Shown here: positions 580 through 64,000 of the stretch, one piece after another
How positions within the stretch are numbered: position 1 is the first letter of the stretch
Layout of the letters: every line of letters begins with the position of its first letter
Made by a program: the position numbers and the translations under genes
Notes under the pieces: model-generated
Database searches by the model: none
What the model was told of the DNA's origin: nothing
What the model saw: only the letters and a program-made list of their open reading frames with translations
Source: Actinomadura craniellae
Lineage (GTDB): Bacteria > Actinomycetota > Actinomycetes > Streptosporangiales > Streptosporangiaceae
Assembly: GCF_003289645.1 (NCBI RefSeq)
Contig: NZ_QLYX01000007.1
Span: forward strand, 62,001 to 126,000
DNA: 64,000 nucleotides
Reading direction: 5' to 3'

Positions 580-2249
580 CGCGGCTCCCGCACCAGGTCG
601 ATGAGCCGGGCGGCGCCCGCCACCGGATCGCGCAGGTGCAGCCAGAGCGCCGGCAGCCCGCGCCGGCGCAGCGACCGCAGGTCGGCCAGTGCCCGGGCGA
701 GTTGGAGCTTGCCGAGGGAGTAGGGCCGGCCGGGCACCGGATGGTCGGCGAGGACCCCGCCGGTGATCACCAGGAACGCGCCGGTGCCCGGCCCGTCCTT
801 GTGGAACGACCCGGTCGCGTGCAACAGCCCCGGCCCGGGCCCGTACGTCACCGGACGGCCCGCCCGCCGGGCCAGGCCCGGTGCCAGGTAGCGCCCGGAG
901 AAGTCGCCGGACAGGTACGTCACGATCGAGAGGTACCCGGTCGGCGGCACGCTGTGCAGCAGCGCGTCGATGGTTCCCGACAGGTCCCGCCGATGCCGGA
1001 GCACCGGCTCCAGCGCCGAGTGCGGGGCGGGCAGGCCGGCCAGGCCGTAGCTGCCGGGATCGGCGTAGACGTCGATGTCGCCGTCGCTGAAGGTGGGGAT
1101 CCCGGTGGGCAGCGGCCCGTTCTCGGCCGCCAGCAGCATGGCCGCCGTGTCGTCCTCGGCCTCCTGGGCCAGCGCCGCACCGGACTCGAACGGGTTGACC
1201 CCGAGCAGCCAGCCGGCCACCGTGGTGGCGTACTCCCAGACCAGGAACTGCGCGCCGGGCGAGGCCCACAGCGAGGTCTCCGAATCGCCCGGCATGGGCT
1301 GCCGAGGGTTGATCACGAGTGCGTGCACGTCCGGGCACTCCGCGCCCGCGGGATGCCCGGGCGGTTCCAGCGGCAGGATGCCCCGGCCGTGCCGGCCGGT
1401 GCCGGTGGCCAGCAGCTGGGAGATCCAGCCGGTGAGCTCGGCGGCGCCGGAGGCGTCGCGCAGCACCAGCTTGTCGCGGGCCGGCCCGGCCGGTGACTGC
1501 TGCGCGCAGCCGCCGAGCACCGCGCCGAGCAGCAGACCCGGGTTGTCCTCCTCCTTGGCCAGCGCGGGGGCCACCGCGGCGGCCTGGTCGAGCAGCGGGG
1601 CCACGTCCGCCCCGGTGAGCAGCGCGGGCACCAGCCCGTACGCCGACAGCGCGCCGAAGTGGCCGGGCAGGTCGGGGTCGGTCAGCCCCACCCGGTAGCC
1701 GCAGCGGCGGGCGAAGTCGTCCAGCGGGCTGCCGTGGTCGGTGATGACCAGGAACCGGCCGGCGATCTCGCGGTCGGACAGGCCGTGCTTGCGGAACGCC
1801 TCGACGAAGATGCGCCGGTAGGCGTCGCCCTCGATCGAGACACCGACCTTGCTGGACAAGACGATCACGGTGCGGTCGAGCCGGTCGAGCGCCAGGTTCA
1901 GGGCCGCCGAGTCGCCCCCGTCGAGGATGGTCAGCGGGTCGTGCTCGCCCGCCGCCGCGGCCACCGCCTGGGCCGCCAGGCTCTCGGCGCCCAGGCCGAT
2001 GAGCACGACGTGGTCGAGCCCGGAATAGCGCAGCTCGCCGACCACGCCGTCGAGCCGTTCGAGTAGTTCCCGCGAGGCGAACGGCAGGTCCAGCCAGCCC
2101 AGCCGGCCGTGGTCGACCGACCGCCGGCCCCACAGTCTGGGGTCCTTGGCGGACAGGGCTGCGGGCACACCGCAGGTGATGAGGTAATCGCGGGCCTGCA
2201 ACGCCGAGTCGAGCGCGTCACCCCGCGTCAGCACGTCGAATCCGGCCAC
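576..2249 (-). CDS. Glucose-6-phosphate isomerase-like paralog 2, probable pseudoenzyme
   Basis: This 557-residue protein is colinear with the 549-residue PGI upstream and ends in the same way ('GRPYSLGKLQLARALADLR' versus '[19 protein letters not shown]'). It keeps some core features: the WEYAT segment, and an HK pair in 'GSFHKDGPG' matching 'GQYHKGGPQ'. However GMGGSSL has become GLGAESL (residues 85-91), SSKSGGT has become SSKVGVS (132-138), the signature GRYSALS has become GHFGALS, and the [12 protein letters not shown] segment has lost QP and the lysine. These residues bind sugar phosphate in the family, so isomerase activity is doubtful. A role as regulator, scaffold or divergent sugar-phosphate sensor is inference. 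It lies 167 bp downstream of pgi, separated by a strong hairpin, and overlaps the next paralog by GTGA. Confidence 0.8.
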   Translation of the reverse strand: MAGFDVLTRGDALDSALQARDYLITCGVPAALSAKDPRLWGRRSVDHGRLGWLDLPFASRELLERLDGVVGELRYSGLDHVVLIGLGAESLAAQAVAAAAGEHDPLTILDGGDSAALNLALDRLDRTVIVLSSKVGVSIEGDAYRRIFVEAFRKHGLSDREIAGRFLVITDHGSPLDDFARRCGYRVGLTDPDLPGHFGALSAYGLVPALLTGADVAPLLDQAAAVAPALAKEEDNPGLLLGAVLGGCAQQSPAGPARDKLVLRDASGAAELTGWISQLLATGTGRHGRGILPLEPPGHPAGAECPDVHALVINPRQPMPGDSETSLWASPGAQFLVWEYATTVAGWLLGVNPFESGAALAQEAEDDTAAMLLAAENGPLPTGIPTFSDGDIDVYADPGSYGLAGLPAPHSALEPVLRHRRDLSGTIDALLHSVPPTGYLSIVTYLSGDFSGRYLAPGLARRAGRPVTYGPGPGLLHATGSFHKDGPGTGAFLVITGGVLADHPVPGRPYSLGKLQLARALADLRSLRRRGLPALWLHLRDPVAGAARLIDLVREPR

Positions 2250-2340
2250 CGGGTCCTCCTCCCCGGCATCGTTTCAGGAGGGGGCCGCATGCGCGACTCA
2301 CTTGCCGATCTTTCGGGATTTCCCGGCGGCTTTCCCGGGT

Positions 2341-2376
2341 GCCGTGGCCGTTCCGGCGGTCCGGAACGGCCACGGC
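2341..2376. terminator. Strong inverted repeat between pgi and its first paralog
   Basis: Perfect 16-bp stem (2341-2356 with 2361-2376) and 4-base loop. It lies in the 167-bp gap after the pgi stop and before the paralog start. There is no clear U-tract. It could terminate or attenuate transcription between pgi and the two PGI-like genes, or stabilise the upstream mRNA 3' end. Confidence 0.6.
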
Positions 2377-2416
2377 GGCGGAGCACTACCGAGGCGGGGA
2401 CCCTGTCACGACAGGG

Positions 2417-4066
2417 TCACGACAGGGCCGCCAGCAGTTCGGCGATCCCGGCGGCCCGGTCGCGCAGATGCAGCCGCACCGCCGGCCGGCCGCGCGAGCG
2501 CAGCGCCCGCAGGTCACCGAACGCCTGGGCGAGCTGAAGCTGCCCGAGCGAGTACGGCCGGCCCGCCACCGGGACGTCTTCGGCCACCGCGCCGGTGATC
2601 TGCAGGAACACCCCGTTCTGCGGGCCGCCCTTGTGGTACTGGCCGGTGGAGTGCAGGAACCGCGGCCCCCAGCCGAAGGTGACCGGGACGGGCGACTTGC
2701 GGATCCGGCCCGCCCGGACGGCCAGCAGCGGGCGCAGCCCCGCCACGTCCGCGTCGGCCGACCGGTCCAGGTAGGCCAGGAGCGCGAGGTACCCCCGGTC
2801 GGGCACCGCGGCGAGGACGGCCTCCAGCGCGCCGGTCAGATCACCGGCGCCCCCCAGCAGCTCAGCGGGCCCGTGCACCTCGACCGCGCCGACGGTCAGC
2901 ACCGGCTCGCCGGAGACGACCGTGGGCTCCGCGCCCTCCTCGGTGCCGCGCAGCAGCGCCGCGGTGTTGTCCTTGGACTCCTGGACGTTGGGCTGGTCGA
3001 ACGGGTTGATGCCGAGGACCCGGCCCGCCACCGCGGTGGCGTACTCCCAGAGCAGGAACTGCGCGCCCAGCGGCCCGGACACGCTCATCTCGGCCGCGTC
3101 GGGGCCGCCGGGGGAGGCGCCGAGCACCACCCGGCGCACATCGTCGGCGGGTTCGAAACCGGGGGCTTCCGGCCCCTCGACCACCACCGGCAGGATGCCC
3201 TTGCCCTCCTTGCCGGTGGACTCGGCGATGAGCTGCTCGGCCCAGTCGCCGAAGCCCACGATGCCCGAGCCGGCGTCGGCGATGACGAGCTTGTCGTGCC
3301 CGCCCAGCGCCGCCGCGCCGAGCGCCGCGCCCAGCGTCAGCCCCGGGTTGTCGTAGGGCTGGGCGAGCATGGGCGACAGCGCCGCGGCCTCGTCCAGCAG
3401 TGTCGCCACGTCGGCCCCGGCCAGCGCGGCGGGCACCAGCCCGAACGCGCTCAGCGCGCTGTACCGGCCGCCCACCTCCGGGTCGGCCAGGAACACCCGG
3501 TACCCGGCCTCGGTGGCGGCGGCCTCCAGCGGCGACCCGGGGTCGGTGACCACCACGATGCGGCCGGCCGGGTCGATCGCGGCGTCCCGGAAGGCCTGCT
3601 CGAAGATCCGCCGGTGGCTGTCGGTCTCGATGGTGCCGCCGCTCTTGCTCGACACCACCAGGACGGTCCGCTCCAGCCGGTCCGACACCACCGCCCGCAC
3701 CTGCTGCGGGTCGGTGGTGTCGAGGACCGTCAGCTCCACCCCGGCGGTCCGGGTGATCACCTCGGGGGCGAGCGACGAGCCGCCCATCCCCGCGAGCACC
3801 ACCCGGTCGAGGCCGGCGGCGCGCGTCTCGGCCACCAGCGCGGCCAGGTCGGGCAGCAGCGCCCGCGACGACTCGGGCAGGTCGAGCCAGCCGAGCCGTC
3901 TGGCCGCCTCCGCGGTGGCGTCCGGCCCCCACAGCTGGGCGTTCTTGGCCGTCAGCGCGGCCGGCACCCCGTCGCTGACCAGCCGGCCGGAGACCGCCTC
4001 GGCCTCGGCGACGACCTCGCCGCGCAGGGTCACCGAGACCCCGCCCGCGGTGACCACCGACGTCAC
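2417..4066 (-). CDS. pgi: Glucose-6-phosphate isomerase
   Basis: The protein interconverts glucose-6-phosphate and fructose-6-phosphate in the cytoplasm, linking glycolysis and the pentose phosphate pathway. The 549-residue length fits the actinobacterial PGI family. Phosphate-binding motifs GMGGSSL (residues 93-99) and [10 protein letters not shown] (139-148) are intact, followed by the GGRYSALS signature, the WEYATAVAG segment, [12 protein letters not shown] and the C-terminal [14 protein letters not shown] segment. The GTG start at 4066 forms a GTGA overlap with the tal stop; a much longer upstream reading frame exists but runs through tal in another frame and is not coding. The operon order is tkt-tal-pgi followed by two degenerate PGI copies. 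Confidence 0.93.
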
Positions 4067-11106: not shown

Positions 11107-12785
11107 GCCCGTACCGGGCCGGCGAGTTCGATCTCGGTGATCTGCTTGATCCGGGGTGGCGCGCCGTCACGGACGACCGCGCCGGTGGCGGCCTCCCAGC
11201 GCACCGCGGACCACATCCCGTCGATCTTCAAGGTGGCCAGGGCGTTGGGGAACCACGGCCCGTGCTTCACCTTCCAGCGCAGCGGCGGGCGCCGCACCCC
11301 GGCCAGCCGGGCCAGCCCGCCACCGATCGCCTTGGCCAGGCCGAATGAGGCGGCGCCGTTGAGCAACCGGACGGCCCGCGGTAGCGGGTTGCGGACCGGC
11401 GAGCAGACGGCCTGGTAGATCCGGCTGCCGCCGTTCTGGCCGGGGACGTGGGCCGGGGCCAGGTAGGAGTAGTGCACGTCGCCGGAGAGGAAGACGATGG
11501 TCTCCGGTGCCCGGCCGCGCTCCCCGCGGGCCACGGCCCGGACCAGGCCGGCCATCGCGGTGAAGGAGTTCTGGAAGGCGGCCCAGTGCTCCAGGTCGAC
11601 CGCCTGGCGGATCGCCTCGGCCGCCCGGGCCGCCAGGCCGCCCCACGCGCCGTCGCACACCGCCTCGTTCCACGCCTCCAGGTCGTGCAGGCCGGGGGTG
11701 AGCAGGTAGGGGAGCGAGGTGCCGATCAGCAGATGGTCGACGTCGCCGCGCATCCGCTCGTCGAACCAGCGCCACTCGTCGGCGTCGAGGACGGCGCGCC
11801 CACCGGGGTCGAGCACCCGGCTGCACCGGGAGTCCACCATGATCAGCCGGGTGTCGCCCAGTTCCCGCGCATAGCTCCACCGGTAACTCTCGGGGTGTCG
11901 GTCGGCCCGCCGGGCGAATTCGTCGACCAGTGCGCCGCCATCGCCCTCGTGCTTGAGCAGCGCGCGCAGCAGCGGTTCGTCCGCCCGCTCGGCGGGGGAG
12001 AGGTTGCCCAGGTGCTGGTAGATCCAGTAGGCGCCGAGCCCGCTGGTGATCCGCCGCCGCCACCAGGGCTTGGTGTTCATCTTGTCGCGCCACGGGCGTG
12101 AGGTGTTCCAGTCGTCCCGGATGTCGTGGTCATCGAAGATCATCAGTGCCGGGACGGTGGACAGCAGCCAGCGGTTGACGGGGTCGCTCCAGGCCAGCCG
12201 GTACAACTCGGCGTACTCGTCGAAGTCGGCGATCTCGTCGCCCGGAGGCTCGCCGGTGTCCCGGCGCGCCTCGATGAACTCCCGCATGGCCGGCGAGGTC
12301 TCGTCGGCGTAGACCTGGTCGCCGAGCAGGAGCAGCAGGTCGGGCCAGCCGGTCTCCTCCCGGGTCTGGTCCGCCGCGGCCGCCACCTCCGGGTCGCCGG
12401 CCAGCCGCAGCGCGTACGCCCGCAGCATGTCGACGCCGTGGGTGCGGTTGTCGGTGGCGGTGTGGCCCACGCTGCTCCGGCACGAGCCGAAGGCCAGTTC
12501 GAGCCGGCGGCCGCCACGCAGGGTACGGATCTTGCTGGGCGGCAGTTCCGAGCCGGGCTCGGGCCAGACGACCTCGCCGTCGAGCCGCACCTGGTAGGGG
12601 GTGCGGGAGCCGGGCTCCAGCCCGGTGACGTCGCACAGCGCGTAGTGATGGCCGTGCACGGTGAACGTCGGGGTCTTCGTGTCCAGGACCTCGACCTCGC
12701 ATGGCCGGTCGGTCTCCACCCAGATCGTGGCGCTGGTCTCGTCGACGTACCGCAGCAGCGGTCCCAGGGTCAGCCTCGCCGTCAC
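11094..12785 (-). CDS. PhoD-like alkaline phosphatase / metallophosphatase
   Basis: This 563-residue protein belongs to the PhoD-like metallophosphatase group. Metal-binding motifs visible are the N-terminal FGSCR, LLLLGDQVYADE, FDDHDIRDDWNTS and FLSGDVHYSYLA, spread over residues about 100-450 after an N-terminal beta-rich domain. Members hydrolyse phosphomonoesters or diesters. No signal peptide or twin-arginine motif is visible, so this copy is probably cytoplasmic, unlike secreted PhoD. It is tail-to-tail with ctaA with a 13-bp overlap, and follows polX on the same strand after 172 bp. Confidence 0.85.
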   Translation of the reverse strand: MTARLTLGPLLRYVDETSATIWVETDRPCEVEVLDTKTPTFTVHGHHYALCDVTGLEPGSRTPYQVRLDGEVVWPEPGSELPPSKIRTLRGGRRLELAFGSCRSSVGHTATDNRTHGVDMLRAYALRLAGDPEVAAAADQTREETGWPDLLLLLGDQVYADETSPAMREFIEARRDTGEPPGDEIADFDEYAELYRLAWSDPVNRWLLSTVPALMIFDDHDIRDDWNTSRPWRDKMNTKPWWRRRITSGLGAYWIYQHLGNLSPAERADEPLLRALLKHEGDGGALVDEFARRADRHPESYRWSYARELGDTRLIMVDSRCSRVLDPGGRAVLDADEWRWFDERMRGDVDHLLIGTSLPYLLTPGLHDLEAWNEAVCDGAWGGLAARAAEAIRQAVDLEHWAAFQNSFTAMAGLVRAVARGERGRAPETIVFLSGDVHYSYLAPAHVPGQNGGSRIYQAVCSPVRNPLPRAVRLLNGAASFGLAKAIGGGLARLAGVRRPPLRWKVKHGPWFPNALATLKIDGMWSAVRWEAATGAVVRDGAPPRIKQITEIELAGPVRAQAG

Positions 12786-47496: not shown

Positions 47497-48309
47497 TCAG
47501 GCCAGGAGGCGGTGGGCGCCCGCGTACACGTTCATCGAGTCGCCGCGCAGGAACCCGATCAGGGTGAGGCCCGCGGCCTCGGCCAGTTCGGCGGCCAGGG
47601 AGGAGGGCGCCGACACCGCGGCGAGCACGGGCACACCGGCCTGCACGGCCTTCTGGACCAGTTCGAACGAGGCCCGTCCGCTCACCATCAGCACCGTGCC
47701 GGCCAGCGGCAGCCGGTCCTCGCGCAGCGCCCAGCCCACGACCTTGTCCACCGCGTTGTGCCGGCCCACGTCCTCGCGGACCGCCAGCGCCCGGCCGGTG
47801 CCGTCGAACAGCCCGGCGGCGTGCAGCCCGCCGGTGCGGTCGAACGCCCGCTGCGCCGCCCGCAACGCGCCGGGCAGCCCGATCACCGTGCGCGGGTCGA
47901 GCCGTACGGGGTCGGCGCCCACGTCGAAGCGGGCGCGCCGCCGCAGCGCCTCGATGCTCTCCGTCCCGCACACCCCGCAGGCGCTGGTGACGGGGAAGGC
48001 GCGGGCCGGCACGGGTTCGGGCACGCCCTCGGCCAGCCGGACGTCGACCACGTTGTAGGTGTTCTCACCGCCGTCCGCGCAGTGGCGCATGGCGGCGAGG
48101 TCGGCGGGCCCGCCGATCGCGCCCTCGGCCGACAGGAAGCCCGCGACCAGGTCGAAGTCGTCGCCCGGGGTGCGCATGGTCACGGTCAGCGGCCGCCCGC
48201 CGATCCGGATCTCCAGTGGCTCCTCGACGGCCAGGGCGTCCGGCCGCCGGTCCGGCGCCCGGCCGGCCCGCAGCCGGAGCACCGGCCTGCGCACGGTGAT
48301 CCGCCCCAT
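47497..48309 (-). CDS. fdhD: FdhD sulfurtransferase for formate dehydrogenase
   Basis: This 270-residue protein supplies sulfur to the molybdenum/tungsten bis-MGD cofactor of formate dehydrogenase. The family CxxC motif is in TSACGVCGTES (about residues 107-117). Other features: MRTPGDDFDLVAGFL and VLMVSGRASFELVQKA. The ATG at 48309 is 7 nt downstream of TAACGT, consistent with a leaderless transcript. It is divergent from fdhA, across a 103-bp gap, and completes the fdh cluster. Confidence 0.94.
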   Translation of the reverse strand: MGRITVRRPVLRLRAGRAPDRRPDALAVEEPLEIRIGGRPLTVTMRTPGDDFDLVAGFLSAEGAIGGPADLAAMRHCADGGENTYNVVDVRLAEGVPEPVPARAFPVTSACGVCGTESIEALRRRARFDVGADPVRLDPRTVIGLPGALRAAQRAFDRTGGLHAAGLFDGTGRALAVREDVGRHNAVDKVVGWALREDRLPLAGTVLMVSGRASFELVQKAVQAGVPVLAAVSAPSSLAAELAEAAGLTLIGFLRGDSMNVYAGAHRLLA

Positions 48310-48322
48310 GCCGCCGACGTTA
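48310..48322 (-). promoter_or_regulatory. Leaderless promoter -10 for fdhD
   Basis: On the minus strand TAACGT (48322-48317) precedes the ATG at 48309 by 7 nt. No ribosome binding site. Fits the class described in the findings. Confidence 0.45.
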
Positions 48323-48412
48323 CCCCGCGGACTCCCCGGCAGGAATGATCGGCTACCGGTCGGGGTAGAAGAGGCGTGTTCGCGACGATCAGGGAGAATC
48401 GGGCCAAGGATT

Positions 48413-51400
48413 ATGACCTTCCTGCCCTGGCCGGTGCTGCGGCAGCTCACCGGCCCGGACCGCACGGGCCGTGGCGCCGCCGCCCGCTCGGCGCGCACCG
48501 ACGCCCTCGCGCCGCGCACCGAGCGCGCCGACAAGGTGGTCCCGTCGGTCTGCCCGTACTGCGCGGTGGGCTGCGGGCAGCAGGTCTTCGTCGCCGACGG
48601 GAAGGTCACCCAGATCGAGGGCGACCCGGCCTCGCCGATCTCCCGCGGCCGGCTGTGCCCCAAGGGTTCCGCGAGCAAGCAACTCGTCACCGGTCCCCAC
48701 CGGCAGACCAGGGTCCTGTACCGGCGGCCGCACGGCACCGAATGGGAGCCGCTGGAGCTGGACCGGGCGATGGACATGATCGCCGACCGGGTGGTCGCGG
48801 CCCGCCGGGAGAGCTGGCAGGACACCGTCGAGGGCAAGGCCGTCAACCGCTGCATGGGCATCGCGGCGCTGGGCGGGGCCACCCTCGACAACGAGGAGAA
48901 CTACCTCATCAAGAAGCTCTGGACCGCTCTCGGCGCCGTCCAGATCGAGAACCAGGCCCGTATTTGACACTCCTCCACCGTCCCCGGTCTGGGGACCTCG
49001 TACGGCCGTGGCGGCGCCACGACGTTCCAGCAGGACCTGGTCAACTCCGACTGCATCGTCATCCAGGGCTCCAACATGGCCGAGTGCCATCCGGTCGGGT
49101 TCCAGTGGGTGGTCGAGGCCAGGCAGCGCGGCGCGAAGGTGTTCCACATCGACCCGCGGTTCACCCGCACGAGCGCGCTGGCCGACCGGCACCTGCCGAT
49201 CCGGGCGGGCTCCGACGTGGTCTTCCTGGGCGCGCTGATCAACCACGTGCTGGCGGGCGGCCATGACTTCCGCGAGTACGTGGTCGCCTACACCAACGCG
49301 GCCACGATCCTGAGCGACGACTTCCGGGACACCGAGGACCTGGACGGGCTGTTCTCCGGCTACGACCCGGAGAGCCGCAGCTACGACCCCGCGAGCTGGG
49401 CGTACCGGGGCGTCGCCGCGGAACCGGCGGCGGGCGCCCGCGAGGAGGAGGACGTCCGGCACGAGCACGGTCCGGAGGCCCAGTACGAGGCGACCCCCGC
49501 GCAGACCGGCCCGGCGCCCGAACGCGACGAGACGCTGCAGCACCCGCGCTGCGTCTACCAGGTGCTCAAGCGGCACTTCGCCCGCTACACCCCGGAGCTG
49601 GTCGAGGAGCTGTGCGGCATCCCGCCCGAGGCGTTCGCCGAGGTCGCCGACGCCGTCGTGCGCTGCTCGGGGCGCGACCGCACCACGGCATGGGTGTACA
49701 GCGTCGGCTGGACCCAGCACACCGTCGGCGTCCAGTACATCCGCACCGCCGCCATCCTCCAACTGTTGCTCGGCAACATCGGGCGGCCCGGCGGCGGGAT
49801 CCTGGCACTGCGCGGCCACGCCTCGATCCAGGGCTCGACCGACATCCCGACGCTCTACAACCTGCTGCCCGGCTACCTGCCGATGCCGTTCGCCCACGAG
49901 CACGAGGACCTGGACTCCTACCTGGCGGGGGCGGCCGGCGACACCGGGTTCTGGGGCCGCAAGCGGTCGTACATGGTCAGCCTGCTCAAGGCCTGGTGGG
50001 GCGACGCGGCCACCGCCGACAACGACTTCCGGTTCGGCCACCTGCCCCGGCTGACCGGCGACCACGGCACCTACCGGACGGTCATGGACCAGATCGACGG
50101 CAAGGTCAAGGGGTACTTCCTGACCGGCGAGAACCCGGCCGTGGGCTCGGCCGGCGGCAAGATGCAGCGGCTCGGGCTGGCCGCCCTCGACTGGCTGGTG
50201 GTGCGCGACCTCACCCTGATCGAGAGCGCCACGTTCTGGAAGGAGGGCCCGGAGATCGAGACCGGTGAGCTGAGCACGCCGGAGATCGGCACCGAGGTGT
50301 TCTTCCTGCCCGCCGCCGCGCACACCGAGAAGGACGGCACCTTCACCAACACCCAGCGGCTGCTGCAGTGGCACCACAAGGCGGTCGAGCCGCCCGGCGA
50401 CGCCCGCAGCGACCTGTGGTTCTTCTACCACCTGGGCCGCCGCATCCGGGCGCGGCTGGCCGGCTCCGACGACCCTCGCGACCTGCCGTTGCAGGAGCTG
50501 ACCTGGGACTACCCGACCGAGGGCGAGCACGAGGAGCCGTCCGCCACGGCGGTGCTGCGCGAGATCAACGGGGTCGGCCCGGACGGTGCCGCGCTGTCGT
50601 CGTTCACCGAACTGGAGGACGATGGCTCCACTGCCGCCGGCTGCTGGATCTACACCGGCGCCTTCGCCGGCGAGGTCAACCAGACCGCCCGCCGCCGCCC
50701 GGGAACCGAGCAGTCGTGGGTGGCCCCCGAATGGGGCTGGGCCTGGCCCGCCAACCGGCGCATCCTCTACAACCGGGCGTCGGCCGACCCGGACGGCCGG
50801 CCGTGGAGCGAACGCAAGCGTTACGTCTGGTGGGACCCCGACCGGGGCGACCAGGGGGAGTGGACCGGCCACGACGTCCCCGACTTCGAGCGGGCCAAGC
50901 CGCCCGGCCACCGCCCGGAACCCGGCGCCACCGCCGAGCACGCGCTGGCGGGCGACGACCCGTTCATCATGCAGACCGACGGCAAGGGCTGGCTGTACGT
51001 GCCCAAGGGGCTGGTCGACGGCCCGCTGCCGGCGCACTACGAGCCGCAGGAGTCGCCGGTCGTCAACCCGCTGTACGGGCAGCAGAGCAACCCCGCGCGG
51101 CGGGTCTTCCGGCGCCGCCGCAACCGCTACCATCCGGTCGGTGGCGAGGTATACCCGTACGCGGTGACCACCTACCGGCTCACCGAGCACCACACGGCGG
51201 GCGGCATGAGCCGCACCCTGGCCTACCTGTCGGAGCTGCAGCCCGAGCTGTTCTGCGAGGTCTCGCCCGAGCTGGCCGCCGAGCGGGGGCTGGTCAACGG
51301 CGGCTGGGCGACGATCATCACTGCGCGCACCGCCATCGAGGCCAGGGTGCTGGTGACCCGGCGGATCGCACCGCTGCGGATCCGGGGGCGGACCGTCCAC

Positions 51401-51628
51401 CAGGTCGGGCTGCCCTACCACTGGGGGCACGCGGGGTCGGTCACCGGCGACGCGGTCAACGACCTGCTGCCGATCGTCCTGGACCCCAATGTGGGCATCC
51501 AGGAGAGCAAGGCGGCCACCTGCGACGTCCGCGCCGGCCGGCGGCCGCGCGGGCCCGCGCTGACGGCCCTGGTCCGCGGCCACCGGCGGGCGGCGGGGCT
51601 GGAGAACGAAGGGGACGACGAACCTTGA
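48413..51628 (+). CDS. fdhA: Formate dehydrogenase catalytic subunit, selenocysteine-containing
   Basis: This 1071-residue molybdopterin oxidoreductase oxidises formate to CO2. An N-terminal [4Fe-4S] motif has cysteines at about residues 47, 50, 54 and 82. An in-frame TGA at 48965-48967 (codon 185) sits in 'ENQARI-U-HSSTVPGLG', precisely where Sec is found in FdnG/FdhF-type enzymes, and the frame continues uninterrupted for another 887 codons with normal MGD-binding features (GSNMAECHP..., 'VYSVGWTQHTVG', 'IGRPGGGI'). Reading it as a stop would give two truncated halves. ATG 48413 is preferred (AAGGA just upstream). A SECIS hairpin follows at 48980. Confidence 0.95.
48980..48996 (+). promoter_or_regulatory. 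Bacterial SECIS element of fdhA
   Basis: GTCCCC (48980-48985) pairs with GGGGAC (48991-48996) around a GGTCT loop. The GGUCU loop begins 18 nt after the UGA, the same distance and loop sequence as I recall for E. coli fdhF. It would recruit SelB with Sec-tRNA. Confidence 0.85.
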
Positions 51629-52461
51629 CCTACGACCCGGCACGATCCTCCGGTTACCCCGACCCCCCGCAGCGGGTCGGGTTCTTCACCGACACCTCGA
51701 TCTGCATCGGCTGCAAGGCCTGCGAGGTCGCCTGCAAGGAGTGGAACGGCCTGCCCGCCGACGGGCCGCTGCCCGAGGACGCGTCGGTCCTGGAACTGAC
51801 CGGGATGTCCTACGACAACACCGGGGCGCTCGGCGCGAGCACCTGGCGGCACGTCGCCTTCGTCGAGAAGCAGAACGACGCCGGCGGCCTGAACTGGCTG
51901 ATGGCCTCCGACGTGTGCAAGCACTGCACCCACGCCGCCTGCCTGGACGTGTGCCCGACCGGGGCGCTGTTCCGCACCGAGTTCTCCAGCGTGGTCGTCC
52001 AGCAGGACGTCTGCAACGGGTGCGCCTACTGCGTCTCGGCGTGCCCCTACGGCGTCATCGACCGCCGTGAGGGCGACGGGCGGGCCTGGAAGTGCACGCT
52101 GTGCTACGACCGGCTGCGCGGTGGCCTGGAGCCCGCCTGCGCCAAGGCCTGCCCCACCGACTCGATCCAGTTCGGCCCCCTGGACGAGCTGCGCGAGCGC
52201 GCCGACCAGCGGCTGGCCCGGCTGCATTCCGACGGCGTCACCGAGGCCCGGCTGTACGGCGAGGACCCGGCGGACGGCGTCGGCGGGGCGGGCGCGTTCT
52301 TCCTGCTGCTGGACGAGCCGGAGACCTACGGGCTGCCGCCCGACCCGGTGGCCACCACCCGGGATCTGCCGGCCATGTGGCGCTGGGCCGCGGGAGCGGC
52401 GCTCGGGCTGGCCGGCGGGGTCGCCGTGGCGTTCCTCGGCGCCCGGGGGCGGGGCCGGTGA
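51625..52461 (+). CDS. fdhB: Formate dehydrogenase iron-sulfur subunit
   Basis: This 278-residue electron-transfer subunit carries four ferredoxin-like cysteine clusters ([47 protein letters not shown] and CTLCYDRL...[10 protein letters not shown]), so four [4Fe-4S] centres, and a C-terminal hydrophobic helix (about 250-272, [21 protein letters not shown]) that anchors it to the membrane. It links FdhA to the NrfD-type subunit. The start is TTG 51625 in a TTGA overlap with the fdhA stop. Stop overlaps the next gene as GTGA. Confidence 0.92.
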
Positions 52462-53399
52462 ACGCGCCCGAGCAGGTGGACCCGGTCCAGTTCACCGACT
52501 ACTACGGCCGTCCGGTACTCAAGGTCACCCGCTGGAAGTCGCCGCACATGCCCGGCTACCTGTTCCTGGGCGGGCTGTCGGGCGCCGCCTCCACCATGGC
52601 CGCCGCCGCCGAGGCGACGGGACGGCCCCGGCTGGCCCGCCAGGGCCGCCTCACCGCGGCCGTGGCCGCCGTGGGCGGTGCCGGGCTGCTGGTCGCCGAG
52701 CTGGGCCGGCCCGAGCGGTTCCTCAACATGCTGCGCGTCTTCAAGCCCAGCTCGCCGATGAGCGTGGGCTCGTGGATCCTGGCCGCGCACGGCGGGGTGA
52801 CCACCGCGGCGGCGGCCTCGACCGTCACCGGCGTGGCGCCGCGGGCGGGCCGGGCCGCGGTGGCGGTCTCGGCGGTCACCGGACCGCTGGTGGCCACCTA
52901 CACCGGTGTCCTGCTGGCCGACACCGCGGTACCGGCCTGGCACGCCGCCCACCGCCACCTGCCGCCGCTGTTCGCGGGCAGCGCGCTGGCGGCGGCCGGC
53001 GGAGCCGCCATGGTCATGGTGCCGGTCGCGGCGGCGGGCCCGGCCCGGCGGGCGGCCCTGCTGGGCGCCCTGGCCGAGCTGGCGGTCACCGCGTCCCTGG
53101 AACGCGGCCAGGGATTCGGCGAGGAGCCCCGGCTGGTCTCCGAGCCCTACCGGATCGGCCGGGCCGGCACGCTGCTGCGCGCGGCCCGGCTGCTGGCGGT
53201 GGCGGGGGCCGCGGGAACGGCACTGGCGGCGGGACGGCACCGCGCCGCCGCCGTGGCGGCCGGCGCGGCGCTGCTCGCCGGGTCGGCCTGCACCCGCTTC
53301 GGCGTCTACCACGCCGGGGTGCTCGCCGGCCGCGACCCGAAGTACACGGTGGTTCCGCAGCGGGCCCGCCCCCGGGTGCAGGAGTCCCGCCCCGGATGA
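52458..53399 (+). CDS. NrfD-type membrane subunit of formate dehydrogenase
   Basis: This 313-residue membrane protein has eight or nine hydrophobic helices with the layout of NrfD/PsrC subunits, including '[16 protein letters not shown]' and '[26 protein letters not shown]'. In this arrangement electrons from FdhB would be passed to a quinone pool. No heme-binding His pairs as in the FdnI cytochrome b are apparent. GTG at 52458 overlaps fdhB. Third gene of the fdh operon; catalase follows after 167 bp with its own promoter. Confidence 0.9.
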
Positions 53400-56458: not shown

Positions 56459-56554
56459 TGGCGGAGGCGTACGGGAATCGAACCCGCCGACCCGAGATCC
56501 TCGGGTCCATCGGTTTTGAAGACCGGGAAGCCCACCAGGCGCTCGCACGCCTCC
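56459..56554 (-). tRNA. selC: tRNA-Sec (anticodon UCA)
   Basis: A 96-nt tRNA with an 8-bp acceptor stem (GGAGGCGT/ACGCCTCC), long variable arm with a 7-bp stem (ACCCGAG/CTCGGGT), CUUCAAA anticodon loop with UCA at 56517-56519, a 5-bp T stem with a UUCGAUU loop, and an encoded CCA (56461-56459). These are the hallmarks of selenocysteine tRNA. It reads the UGA in fdhA. TAGGGT lies 7 nt before the 5' end. D-stem pairing is imperfect in my by-eye fold. Confidence 0.95.
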
Positions 56555-58628: not shown

Positions 58629-59621
58629 GTGACCCGGTCCGGTGTTCGGCTGACCGCCTATGCTCGCGGCGGCGGCTGCGCCTGCAAGATCCCGCCGGGC
58701 GAGCTCGAGTCCATCGTGTCCGGGCTGCTGGGGCCCGCCGTCCGCGACGACCTGCTGATCGGCGCAGACGACGGCGACGACGCGGCCGTGCTGCGGATCG
58801 AGGGCGGCCGGGCGATCGTCTCCACCACCGACTTCTTCACGCCCGTCGTCGACGACGCCTACGACTGGGGCCGGATCGCCGCGGTCAACGCGCTGTCCGA
58901 CGTCTACGCGGTGGGCGGCGAGCCGCTGATGGCGCTGAACCTGCTGTGCTGGCCGCGCGACACGCTCCCGCTGGAACTGGCCGGGGAGGTGCTGCGCGGT
59001 GGGCTCGACATGGTGGCCCTGGCCGGTGCGCACCTGGCGGGCGGTCACAGCGTCGACGACGCGGAGCCCAAGTACGGGCTGGCGGTCACCGGCGTCGCCG
59101 ACCCCGGCAGGCTGCTCCGGCTGGACGCCGGCCGGCCCGGACTGCCGCTGTCGCTGACCAAGCCGCTGGGCGTCGGGGTGCTCAACACCCGGCACAAGTC
59201 GACCGGCGAGGCCTTCCCGCAGGCCGTCGAGGTGATGACCACGCTGAACGCCGAGGCCTCCCGGATCGCGCTGGGGCGCGGGGTCCGGTGCGCGACCGAC
59301 GTCACCGGATTCGGGCTGCTGGGGCACCTGTACAAGCTGGCCCGCGCCAGCGGCGTCACCGCCGTCGTCGACTCCGCGGCGGTGCCGTACCTGGACGGGG
59401 CCCGGGAGGCCGTCCGGGACGGGTTCGTCTCCGGCGGCACCCGGCGCAACCTGGCGTGGGCCGGCCGGGAGACCGACTTCGGCCGGGTCGGCGAGGCCGA
59501 CCGGCTGCTGCTGGCCGACGCCCAGACCTCGGGCGGGCTGCTGGTGGCGGGGGACGTCCCGGGCGCTCCGGTGATCGGCGAGCTCGTTCCCCGCGGCGAC
59601 CGCCCCCTCGTGGTCCGCTGA
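58629..59621 (+). CDS. selD: Selenophosphate synthetase
   Basis: This 330-residue enzyme makes selenophosphate from selenide and ATP, the selenium donor for Sec-tRNA. The catalytic loop reads GGGCACKIPPGE (about residues 13-24), so the active-site residue is Cys, not Sec. It also has GADDGDDAAVL, DFFTPVVDD, and the C-terminal 'TDVTGFGLLGHL' and 'ADAQTSGGLLVA'. GTG 58629 is set by the leaderless promoter. It lies near selC, divergent from the acyl-CoA synthetase gene. Confidence 0.95.
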   Translation: MTRSGVRLTAYARGGGCACKIPPGELESIVSGLLGPAVRDDLLIGADDGDDAAVLRIEGGRAIVSTTDFFTPVVDDAYDWGRIAAVNALSDVYAVGGEPLMALNLLCWPRDTLPLELAGEVLRGGLDMVALAGAHLAGGHSVDDAEPKYGLAVTGVADPGRLLRLDAGRPGLPLSLTKPLGVGVLNTRHKSTGEAFPQAVEVMTTLNAEASRIALGRGVRCATDVTGFGLLGHLYKLARASGVTAVVDSAAVPYLDGAREAVRDGFVSGGTRRNLAWAGRETDFGRVGEADRLLLADAQTSGGLLVAGDVPGAPVIGELVPRGDRPLVVR

Positions 59622-61685: not shown

Positions 61686-62999
61686 ATGGACATCCGGCGG
61701 CACGTGCCCCGCACCGACGTCGTGCTGGCCGACCCGCGGCTGGCCGCGGCGATCGACCGGCTCGGGCGGACGATGGTGAAGTCGGCCGTGGCCGACGCGC
61801 AACAGCGGGCCCGGGCGGGTGAGATCGAACCCGCGCGGGTCGCCGACGCGGCCGTGGCCGCGCTGCCCGCCGGCGCCGCCACCCTGCGCCCCGTGATCAA
61901 CGCCACCGGCGTGCTGCTCCACACCAACCTCGGCCGGGCGCCCCTGTCAGCCGCCGCGCGCACCGCCATGACCGACGCCGCGGGCTGCACCGACGTCGAG
62001 TACGACCTGGCCACCGGAACCCGCGGCCCGCGCGGCCGGGGCGCCGTCCAGGCCCTCCTGGCCGCCTGCCCGCCCGCCGCGGCGGCGCACGTGGTCAACA
62101 ACAACGCCGCGGCCCTGGTCCTCGCCGCCACCGCGCTCGCCGCCGGCCGCGAGATCGTGATCAGCCGGGGCGAGATGGTCGAGATCGGCGACGGCTTCCG
62201 GATCCCCGACCTGCTGGTCTCCACCGGGGCCCGGCTGCGCGAGGTCGGCACCACCAACCGGACCACCCGCGCCGACTACGCCGCGGCGCTCGGGCCCGAG
62301 ACGGGATTCGTCCTCAAGGTGCACCCGTCGAACTTCCGGATCGAGGGGTTCACCGCCGAGGCCGGCGTGGCGGAACTGGCCGGGCTCGGAGTGCCCGTGG
62401 TGGCCGACCTCGGCTCCGGGCTGCTGGCCCCCGAACCGCTGCTGCCCGACGAACCCGACGCCGCCACCACCCTGTCGGCCGGGGCCGCGCTCGTCACGGC
62501 CAGCGGGGACAAGCTCCTGGGCGGCCCCCAGGCCGGCCTGCTGCTGGGCGAGGAAGAGATCGTGACCCGGCTGCGCAGGCACCCGCTGGCCCGCGCGCTG
62601 CGGGTGGACAAGACCGCGCTGGCCGCGCTGGAGGCCACCCTGCGCGGCCCGGAACCGCCGGTGACCCGGGCGCTGCGGGCCGGGGCCGACGGGCTGCGGC
62701 ACCGCGCCGAACAACTCGCCAAGGAGTTGACCGCGCGCGGCGTCGACGTTCCGGTGGTCGACGCCGCCGCGACCGTCGGCGGCGGGGGAGCGCCGGGCGT
62801 CACGCTGCCCAGCGCGGCGCTGGCCCTGCCGGCCGAGCACGCCGGGCCGCTGCGCGCACACGGCGTCGTGGGCCGCGTCGACCACGGCCGGCTGCTGCTC
62901 GACCTGCGCGCCGTCGACCCGGCCGACGACCACCTCCTCCGGGAGGCGGTGCTCGCGGTGACCCGCGACGCCGCCCCCGACCTCCGGAAAGGGCGCTGA
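61686..62999 (+). CDS. selA: L-seryl-tRNA(Sec) selenium transferase
   Basis: This 437-residue PLP enzyme converts seryl-tRNA-Sec to selenocysteyl-tRNA using selenophosphate. Features: INATGVLLHTNLGRAPL, NNNAAALVLA, SRGEMVEIGDGFRIPD and the PLP lysine in SGDKLLGGPQAG (about residue 276). ATG 61686 (alternative 61680). Its stop shares one base with the selB start (TGATG at 62997), so the two are coupled. Confidence 0.95.
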   Translation: MDIRRHVPRTDVVLADPRLAAAIDRLGRTMVKSAVADAQQRARAGEIEPARVADAAVAALPAGAATLRPVINATGVLLHTNLGRAPLSAAARTAMTDAAGCTDVEYDLATGTRGPRGRGAVQALLAACPPAAAAHVVNNNAAALVLAATALAAGREIVISRGEMVEIGDGFRIPDLLVSTGARLREVGTTNRTTRADYAAALGPETGFVLKVHPSNFRIEGFTAEAGVAELAGLGVPVVADLGSGLLAPEPLLPDEPDAATTLSAGAALVTASGDKLLGGPQAGLLLGEEEIVTRLRRHPLARALRVDKTALAALEATLRGPEPPVTRALRAGADGLRHRAEQLAKELTARGVDVPVVDAAATVGGGGAPGVTLPSAALALPAEHAGPLRAHGVVGRVDHGRLLLDLRAVDPADDHLLREAVLAVTRDAAPDLRKGR

Positions 63000-64000
63000 T
63001 GCAGGTCGTCGCTACGGCGGGCCACGTCGACCACGGGAAATCCACCCTGGTCCGGGCGCTCACCGGGATGGAGCCCGACCGCTGGGCCGAGGAGCGCCGC
63101 CGCGGGCTGACCATCGACCTGGGGTTCGCCTGGACCACCCTGCCGTCAGGACGGCGGCTCGCGCTGGTCGACGTCCCCGGGCACGAACGCTTTGTCACCA
63201 ACATGCTCGCCGGGGTCGGGCCGGTGCCGGCCGTCCTGCTGGTGGTCGCGGCGGACGAGGGCTGGATGCCCCAGTCGGAGGAGCATCTGGCGGCCATCGA
63301 CGCGCTGGGCGTCCGGCACGGGGTGCTCGCGGTCACCCGCTCCGACCTGGCCGACCCCACGCACGCGCTGCGCCAGGCCCGCACCCGGCTGGAGAGCACC
63401 GGGCTGCGGGGCGCCGAGGCGGTCGCCGTCGGCCAGGGCGAGGACACCGGGCTCGACGACCTGATCTCCGCCCTGGACCGGCTGGCGGCCCGGCTGCCCG
63501 TCCCCGATCCGGCGGCGCCGGTCCGGCTGTGGATCGACCGGGCCTTCACCGTCCGGGGCAGCGGCACCGTGGTCACCGGCACGTTGGCCGAGGGCACCGT
63601 CCGGGCCGGTGACGAGCTGCTGCTCACCCCCGCCGGTGAGACCGTCCGGGTCCGTGCCGTCGAGGCGCTGAAGGAACCGGCCGACGAGGTCAGCGGGGTG
63701 GCCCGGGTGGCGCTCAACCTGCGCGGCGTCGACCGGGACGAGGTGGCGCGCGGCATGGCGCTGGTCACCCCCGGGAGCTGGGCCCTGACCACCTGTATCG
63801 ACGTGCGCATCGGCTTCAACGAGTCCTCCGGCCGGCTGCCCCGTCAGATGATCATGCACCTGGGGTCCACGGCGGTGCCGGTCCGGCTCCGCCCGCTGGG
63901 TCCCGACACCGCGCGGCTCACCATCAACGCCCGGCTGCCCCTGCACGTCGGCGACCGGGCGTTGCTGCGCGACCCCGGCCGGCGAGCCGTGGCCGGGGCG
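62999..64000 (+). CDS. selB: Selenocysteine-specific elongation factor SelB (3' end outside window)
   Basis: The visible 334 residues include a GTPase domain with GHVDHGKST (about 8-16), 'RRGLTIDLGF', DVPGHERFV and 'VTRSDLAD' (in place of NKxD), then EF-Tu-like domains II and III. SelB delivers Sec-tRNA to UGA by binding the SECIS hairpin through its C-terminal winged helices, which are outside the window. It follows selA directly. Confidence 0.95.
   Translation, partial: MQVVATAGHVDHGKSTLVRALTGMEPDRWAEERRRGLTIDLGFAWTTLPSGRRLALVDVPGHERFVTNMLAGVGPVPAVLLVVAADEGWMPQSEEHLAAIDALGVRHGVLAVTRSDLADPTHALRQARTRLESTGLRGAEAVAVGQGEDTGLDDLISALDRLAARLPVPDPAAPVRLWIDRAFTVRGSGTVVTGTLAEGTVRAGDELLLTPAGETVRVRAVEALKEPADEVSGVARVALNLRGVDRDEVARGMALVTPGSWALTTCIDVRIGFNESSGRLPRQMIMHLGSTAVPVRLRPLGPDTARLTINARLPLHVGDRALLRDPGRRAVAGA

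Follow-up and report, generated by a model that had tools for sequence, protein, structure and literature searches.

An in-frame UGA in a formate dehydrogenase gene of Actinomadura craniellae is almost certainly read as selenocysteine (Sec), as is indicated by the position of the codon, solved Sec-containing homologues, a covarying hairpin, the loss of that hairpin in cysteine (Cys) forms, and linked selA, selB, selC, and selD genes. Judging from its sequence, we assign the locus with very high confidence to the molybdenum- or tungsten-dependent, FDH-N/O-like formate dehydrogenases (FDHs) of actinobacteria, with Sec 185 as the expected metal ligand and with insertion presumably driven by SelB and the hairpin. 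The gene is contained in a 64-kb stretch of DNA (here termed the window), and the window itself requires no new mechanism.

The gene, fdhA (formate dehydrogenase alpha subunit), occupies positions 48413..51628 of the forward strand, its limits being drawn from the translation with TGA read through, Pfam, the NCBIfam model NF041513, alignment to the structures 1h0h and 1kqf, and the N-termini of relatives. The frame runs from an ATG at 48413 to a terminal TGA at 51626-51628 and contains one internal TGA only, at 48965-48967 on the same strand (context ENQARI-TGA-HSST). With this codon read through, the product has 1071 residues, and the predicted Sec is residue 185. An earlier note on this DNA had located the interrupting TGA exactly at the Sec position, and this is borne out: the frame is open, and the TGA falls on the Sec (printed X) of both the Desulfovibrio gigas FDH (1h0h) and Escherichia coli FdnG (1kqf), which in alignment to these solved structures is the Mo/W ligand position. 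The 887 codons that the same note counted after the TGA are indeed intact, but this figure includes the terminal stop, and the sense codons number 886. Pfam recognizes Fe4S4, molybdopterin, and MoCo-binding domains in FdhA, NF041513 (‘formate_DH_Act’) matches residues 3-1059 with 1950.2 bits (cut-off 1400), and TIGR01553 (FDH-N alpha) matches with 915 bits (curated cut-off 814.2). An antisense open reading frame (ORF) at 48389-51643 (1084 aa) was regarded as mirroring a gene of high GC content and left aside, and several long ORFs on both strands of the window had no family match.

Automated annotation had been expected to divide fdhA into two genes. This holds for a plain ORF caller, which reports 48059-48967 and 49076-51628, but not for RefSeq, in which a UGA-containing Arthrobacter orthologue is kept whole as one CDS (589-3921 of locus L151) spanning the TGA at 1153; moreover, NF041513 is a dedicated NCBIfam model typed ‘exception’.

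Directly after the UGA lies a bacterial SECIS-type hairpin (48980..48996, forward strand), proposed from its fold, from compensatory third-position changes, and from its loss in Cys homologues. The 6-bp stem is formed by GUCCCC (48980-48985) and GGGGAC (48991-48996), which enclose a GGUCU loop (48986-48990). The distance of 18 nt from the UGA that had been claimed for the hairpin is that of the loop, whereas the stem begins after 12 nt. E. coli fdhF has the same GGUCU at the same distance from its UGA. Folding of a 41-nt stretch predicts this hairpin as the structure of lowest energy; as a single sequence, its stability does not exceed that of shuffles (z = +0.73), and folding energy was therefore left out as evidence for it. 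A scan of the 64-kb window for UGA followed by a hairpin returned one further match, at 12275, where a TGA is followed, at the appropriate spacing, by a 7-bp stem that closes an AGGUCU loop; its frame is not gene-like, and it is probably due to chance. Given an unexceptional thermodynamic stability and a second scan match, the case against chance rests on comparative evidence.

For this comparison, we assembled 81 genes, namely the window fdhA and 80 loci from named actinobacterial genomes. FdhA relatives occur in Actinoallomurus, Streptosporangium, Streptomyces, Amycolatopsis, Actinomadura, and others, the nearest named relative being 77% identical over the best segment. A stop occupies the Sec codon in 81/81 genes (67 TGA, 14 TAG), and all six stem pairs are kept in 81/81. 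The loop is GGUCU in 70 genes, AGUCU in nine, and AGUUU in two. The hairpin is likewise intact in the 14 genes with TAG, the record titles of which are mostly Blastococcus, Modestobacter, Geodermatophilus, or Klenkia. The earlier note had suggested a covariance search of the SECIS, and covariation was found, in the form of compensatory synonymous changes at the third positions of a Val and a Gly codon. This Val3-Gly3 pair, both members of which are silent in the protein, is C-G in 38 of the 81 genes, U-A in 23, U-G in nine, G-U in six, and G-C in five. Pairing was seen in 64/64 distinct sequences against 39.4 expected, and 0/20,000 shuffles reached 64, in a test that ignores the kinship of the sequences; the five pair types, together with the contrast to Cys forms described below, extend support for the predicted hairpin beyond the shuffle test.

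The same comparison bears on the notion that the TGA stems from faulty sequencing, or that the gene is a pseudogene with a nonsense mutation at this codon. A single lesion would indeed leave one stop in a frame that is whole elsewhere, but it would not place a stop at this exact codon in every gene compared, across many genera and with a conserved downstream hairpin. As the entire frame also matches NF041513 over 3-1059 and intact sel genes are nearby, we consider error or decay extremely improbable. Separately, a second, more distant FDH (~45% identical) likewise carries a TGA in frame at its Sec codon (L139, G050:C1:947397; L140, G186:C3:470603); its downstream sequence differs, with an AGUUU loop and a stem that appears weaker by eye.

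Homologues without a stop provide a control. A protein search of 60 relatives yielded 10 such homologues (65-70% identical to the query), and 10/10 have TGC (Cys) at the Sec site. Only 3-5/6 stem pairs are present in these, GGUCU is absent, and Ala, Val, Thr, or Ser stands where the Sec forms have Pro. By comparison, nine Sec forms from other genomes, fetched in the same way, have 6/6 pairs; some genomes (G013, G035) contain both a Sec and a Cys form. Thus, the hairpin tracks the stop codon and not the protein family. In converted genes, remnants of SECIS-like structures have been described 3' of the Cys codons (PMC1794560).

Alternatively, near-cognate suppression might insert another residue (Trp or Cys) at the UGA, or translation might yield two distinct polypeptides, the ATG at 49076 opening a frame of 850 residues. 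A downstream product of this kind would be devoid of the N-terminal Fe4S4 domain and of the active-site ligand, the non-stop homologues use TGC at the site, and both versions leave the hairpin and the sel genes unexplained; we give them hardly any credence and retain decoding as Sec.

The machinery for such decoding is encoded within 16 kb downstream of fdhA. The tRNA-Sec gene selC (56463..56554, reverse strand) has a UCA anticodon, was identified with Rfam RF01852 (71.4 bits) and ARAGORN, and is the only tRNA-Sec above the Rfam cut-off genome-wide. Between selC and selA is selD (58629..59621, forward strand, start inferred), which encodes a selenophosphate synthetase of the cysteine form (GGGCACK; TIGR00476, 378 bits, cut-off 125). 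The selenocysteine synthase gene selA (61686..62999, forward strand, start likewise inferred) matches TIGR00474 (417 bits, cut-off 267.9) and PF03841, and its stop is overlapped by one base by the start of selB, the gene of the Sec-specific elongation factor. The latter (62999..64000, forward strand) leaves the window by ~0.8 kb, continuing to 64798, and is complete in the genome at ~599 aa (TIGR00475, 300.6 bits for both pieces together, cut-off 242.25). The claim that a complete Sec machinery lies nearby is therefore upheld, with selB crossing the window end; the absence of a functional selB downstream, which had been named as a finding that would count against Sec, is not what we observe, as the selB frame is open, complete, and above the curated cut-off. 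By eye, genome frames downstream of selB look like RtcB, MoaA, and MobA, the latter two being molybdenum cofactor genes. In the proposed mechanism, SelA and selenophosphate from SelD would generate Sec-tRNA(UCA), and SelB carrying this tRNA would bind the hairpin just after the UGA, so that Sec would be delivered without termination.

Several genomes of the family (G050, G186, G135, and G184; loci L123-L131) contain two or three tRNA-Sec genes; the two in G135 are ~1.2 kb apart on opposite strands. In addition to two UCA tRNA-Sec genes, G050 has a tRNA-Sec-like gene directly downstream of selB (L124:2487-2580; G050:C1:2356486-2356577; 68 bits to RF01852). The anticodon of this gene, ACA, would pair with UGU, a Cys codon. 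In the 18 kb examined near it, no TGT followed by a comparable hairpin was found.

Divergent from fdhA is fdhD (47500..48342, reverse strand, start approximate), encoding the formate dehydrogenase accessory sulfurtransferase (NF001943, 350 bits; PF02634). On the forward strand, the start of fdhB (51625..52461, TTG start) overlaps the fdhA stop; it encodes the 4Fe-4S electron-transfer subunit (Pfam Fer4_11) and scores 185 bits with TIGR01582, under the cut-off of 334.7. Its stop is overlapped in turn by an fdhC-like gene (52458..53399, GTG start) for an NrfD-type membrane subunit, assigned from PF03916 (E=1.4e-14) and its sequence. Over 20 kb, 61 related loci gave FdhB and FdhC matches in 53, SelA in 36, SelD in 35, and SelB in 32. 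A large catalase gene (Pfam PF00199, 53567-55225) lies just downstream of the FDH operon. FdhD would sulfurate the cofactor, and FdhA would take electrons from formate and hand them via FdhB to the membrane subunit of NrfD type, from which they would probably enter the quinone pool.

Among known systems, E. coli FdnG (FDH-N, 1kqf) is like FdhA in its Sec ligand position and in homology over the whole length. In contrast to FdnG, FdhA shows no twin-arginine leader (RR motif) by eye, either in the window or at the N-termini of 14 relatives, and its membrane partner, the third subunit, matches NrfD (PF03916) and is not an FdnI-type cytochrome b; for both reasons, the label is kept at ‘FDH-N/O-like’. 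The lack of a visible leader also leads us to infer that FdhA faces the cytoplasm. It is possible, though we hold this only tentatively, that the actinobacterial branch as a whole is a cytoplasm-facing, NrfD-anchored Sec FDH, the acceptor and energetics of which may differ from those of periplasmic FDH-N.

FdhA does not differ materially from the actinobacterial Sec FDH of NF041513, which it matches at full length. Similarly, FDH1 of Actinomycetospora chiangmaiensis DSM 45062 is clustered as in the window, with a Sec FdhA (1078 aa there), FdhB, FdhC, SelA, and SelB, but SelD, the gene for which lies between selC and selA in the window, is not in the cluster listing (PMC7176365). In that organism, Sec FDHs occur with FdhB, FdhC, SelA, and SelB, formate removal is Se-dependent with proteomic detection, and FDH and SelABD are expressed (PMC7176365). 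The FDH of Geodermatophilaceae has the same gene and hairpin, but its Sec codon is TAG, in place of the TGA and UCA tRNA of the window; UAG-encoded Sec in this family, FDHs included, has already been published (PMC5330540). The genome paper on Streptomyces incarnatus describes a Sec FDH-O and selABCD (PMC4498112). FdhA is the commonest bacterial selenoprotein, and sel genes often adjoin its gene (PMC1794560).

The window fdhA is thus unremarkable within a family already known, hundreds of related soil bacteria are catalogued with the same arrangement, and the enzyme type, the recoding, and the UAG variant were all published before. Within the family, the contrast between Sec and Cys forms, with matching loss of the hairpin, serves as a clear case study in SECIS evolution. 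For Actinomadura craniellae, the locus marks the genome as Sec-decoding, and formate probably serves this bacterium as an energy or redox substrate.
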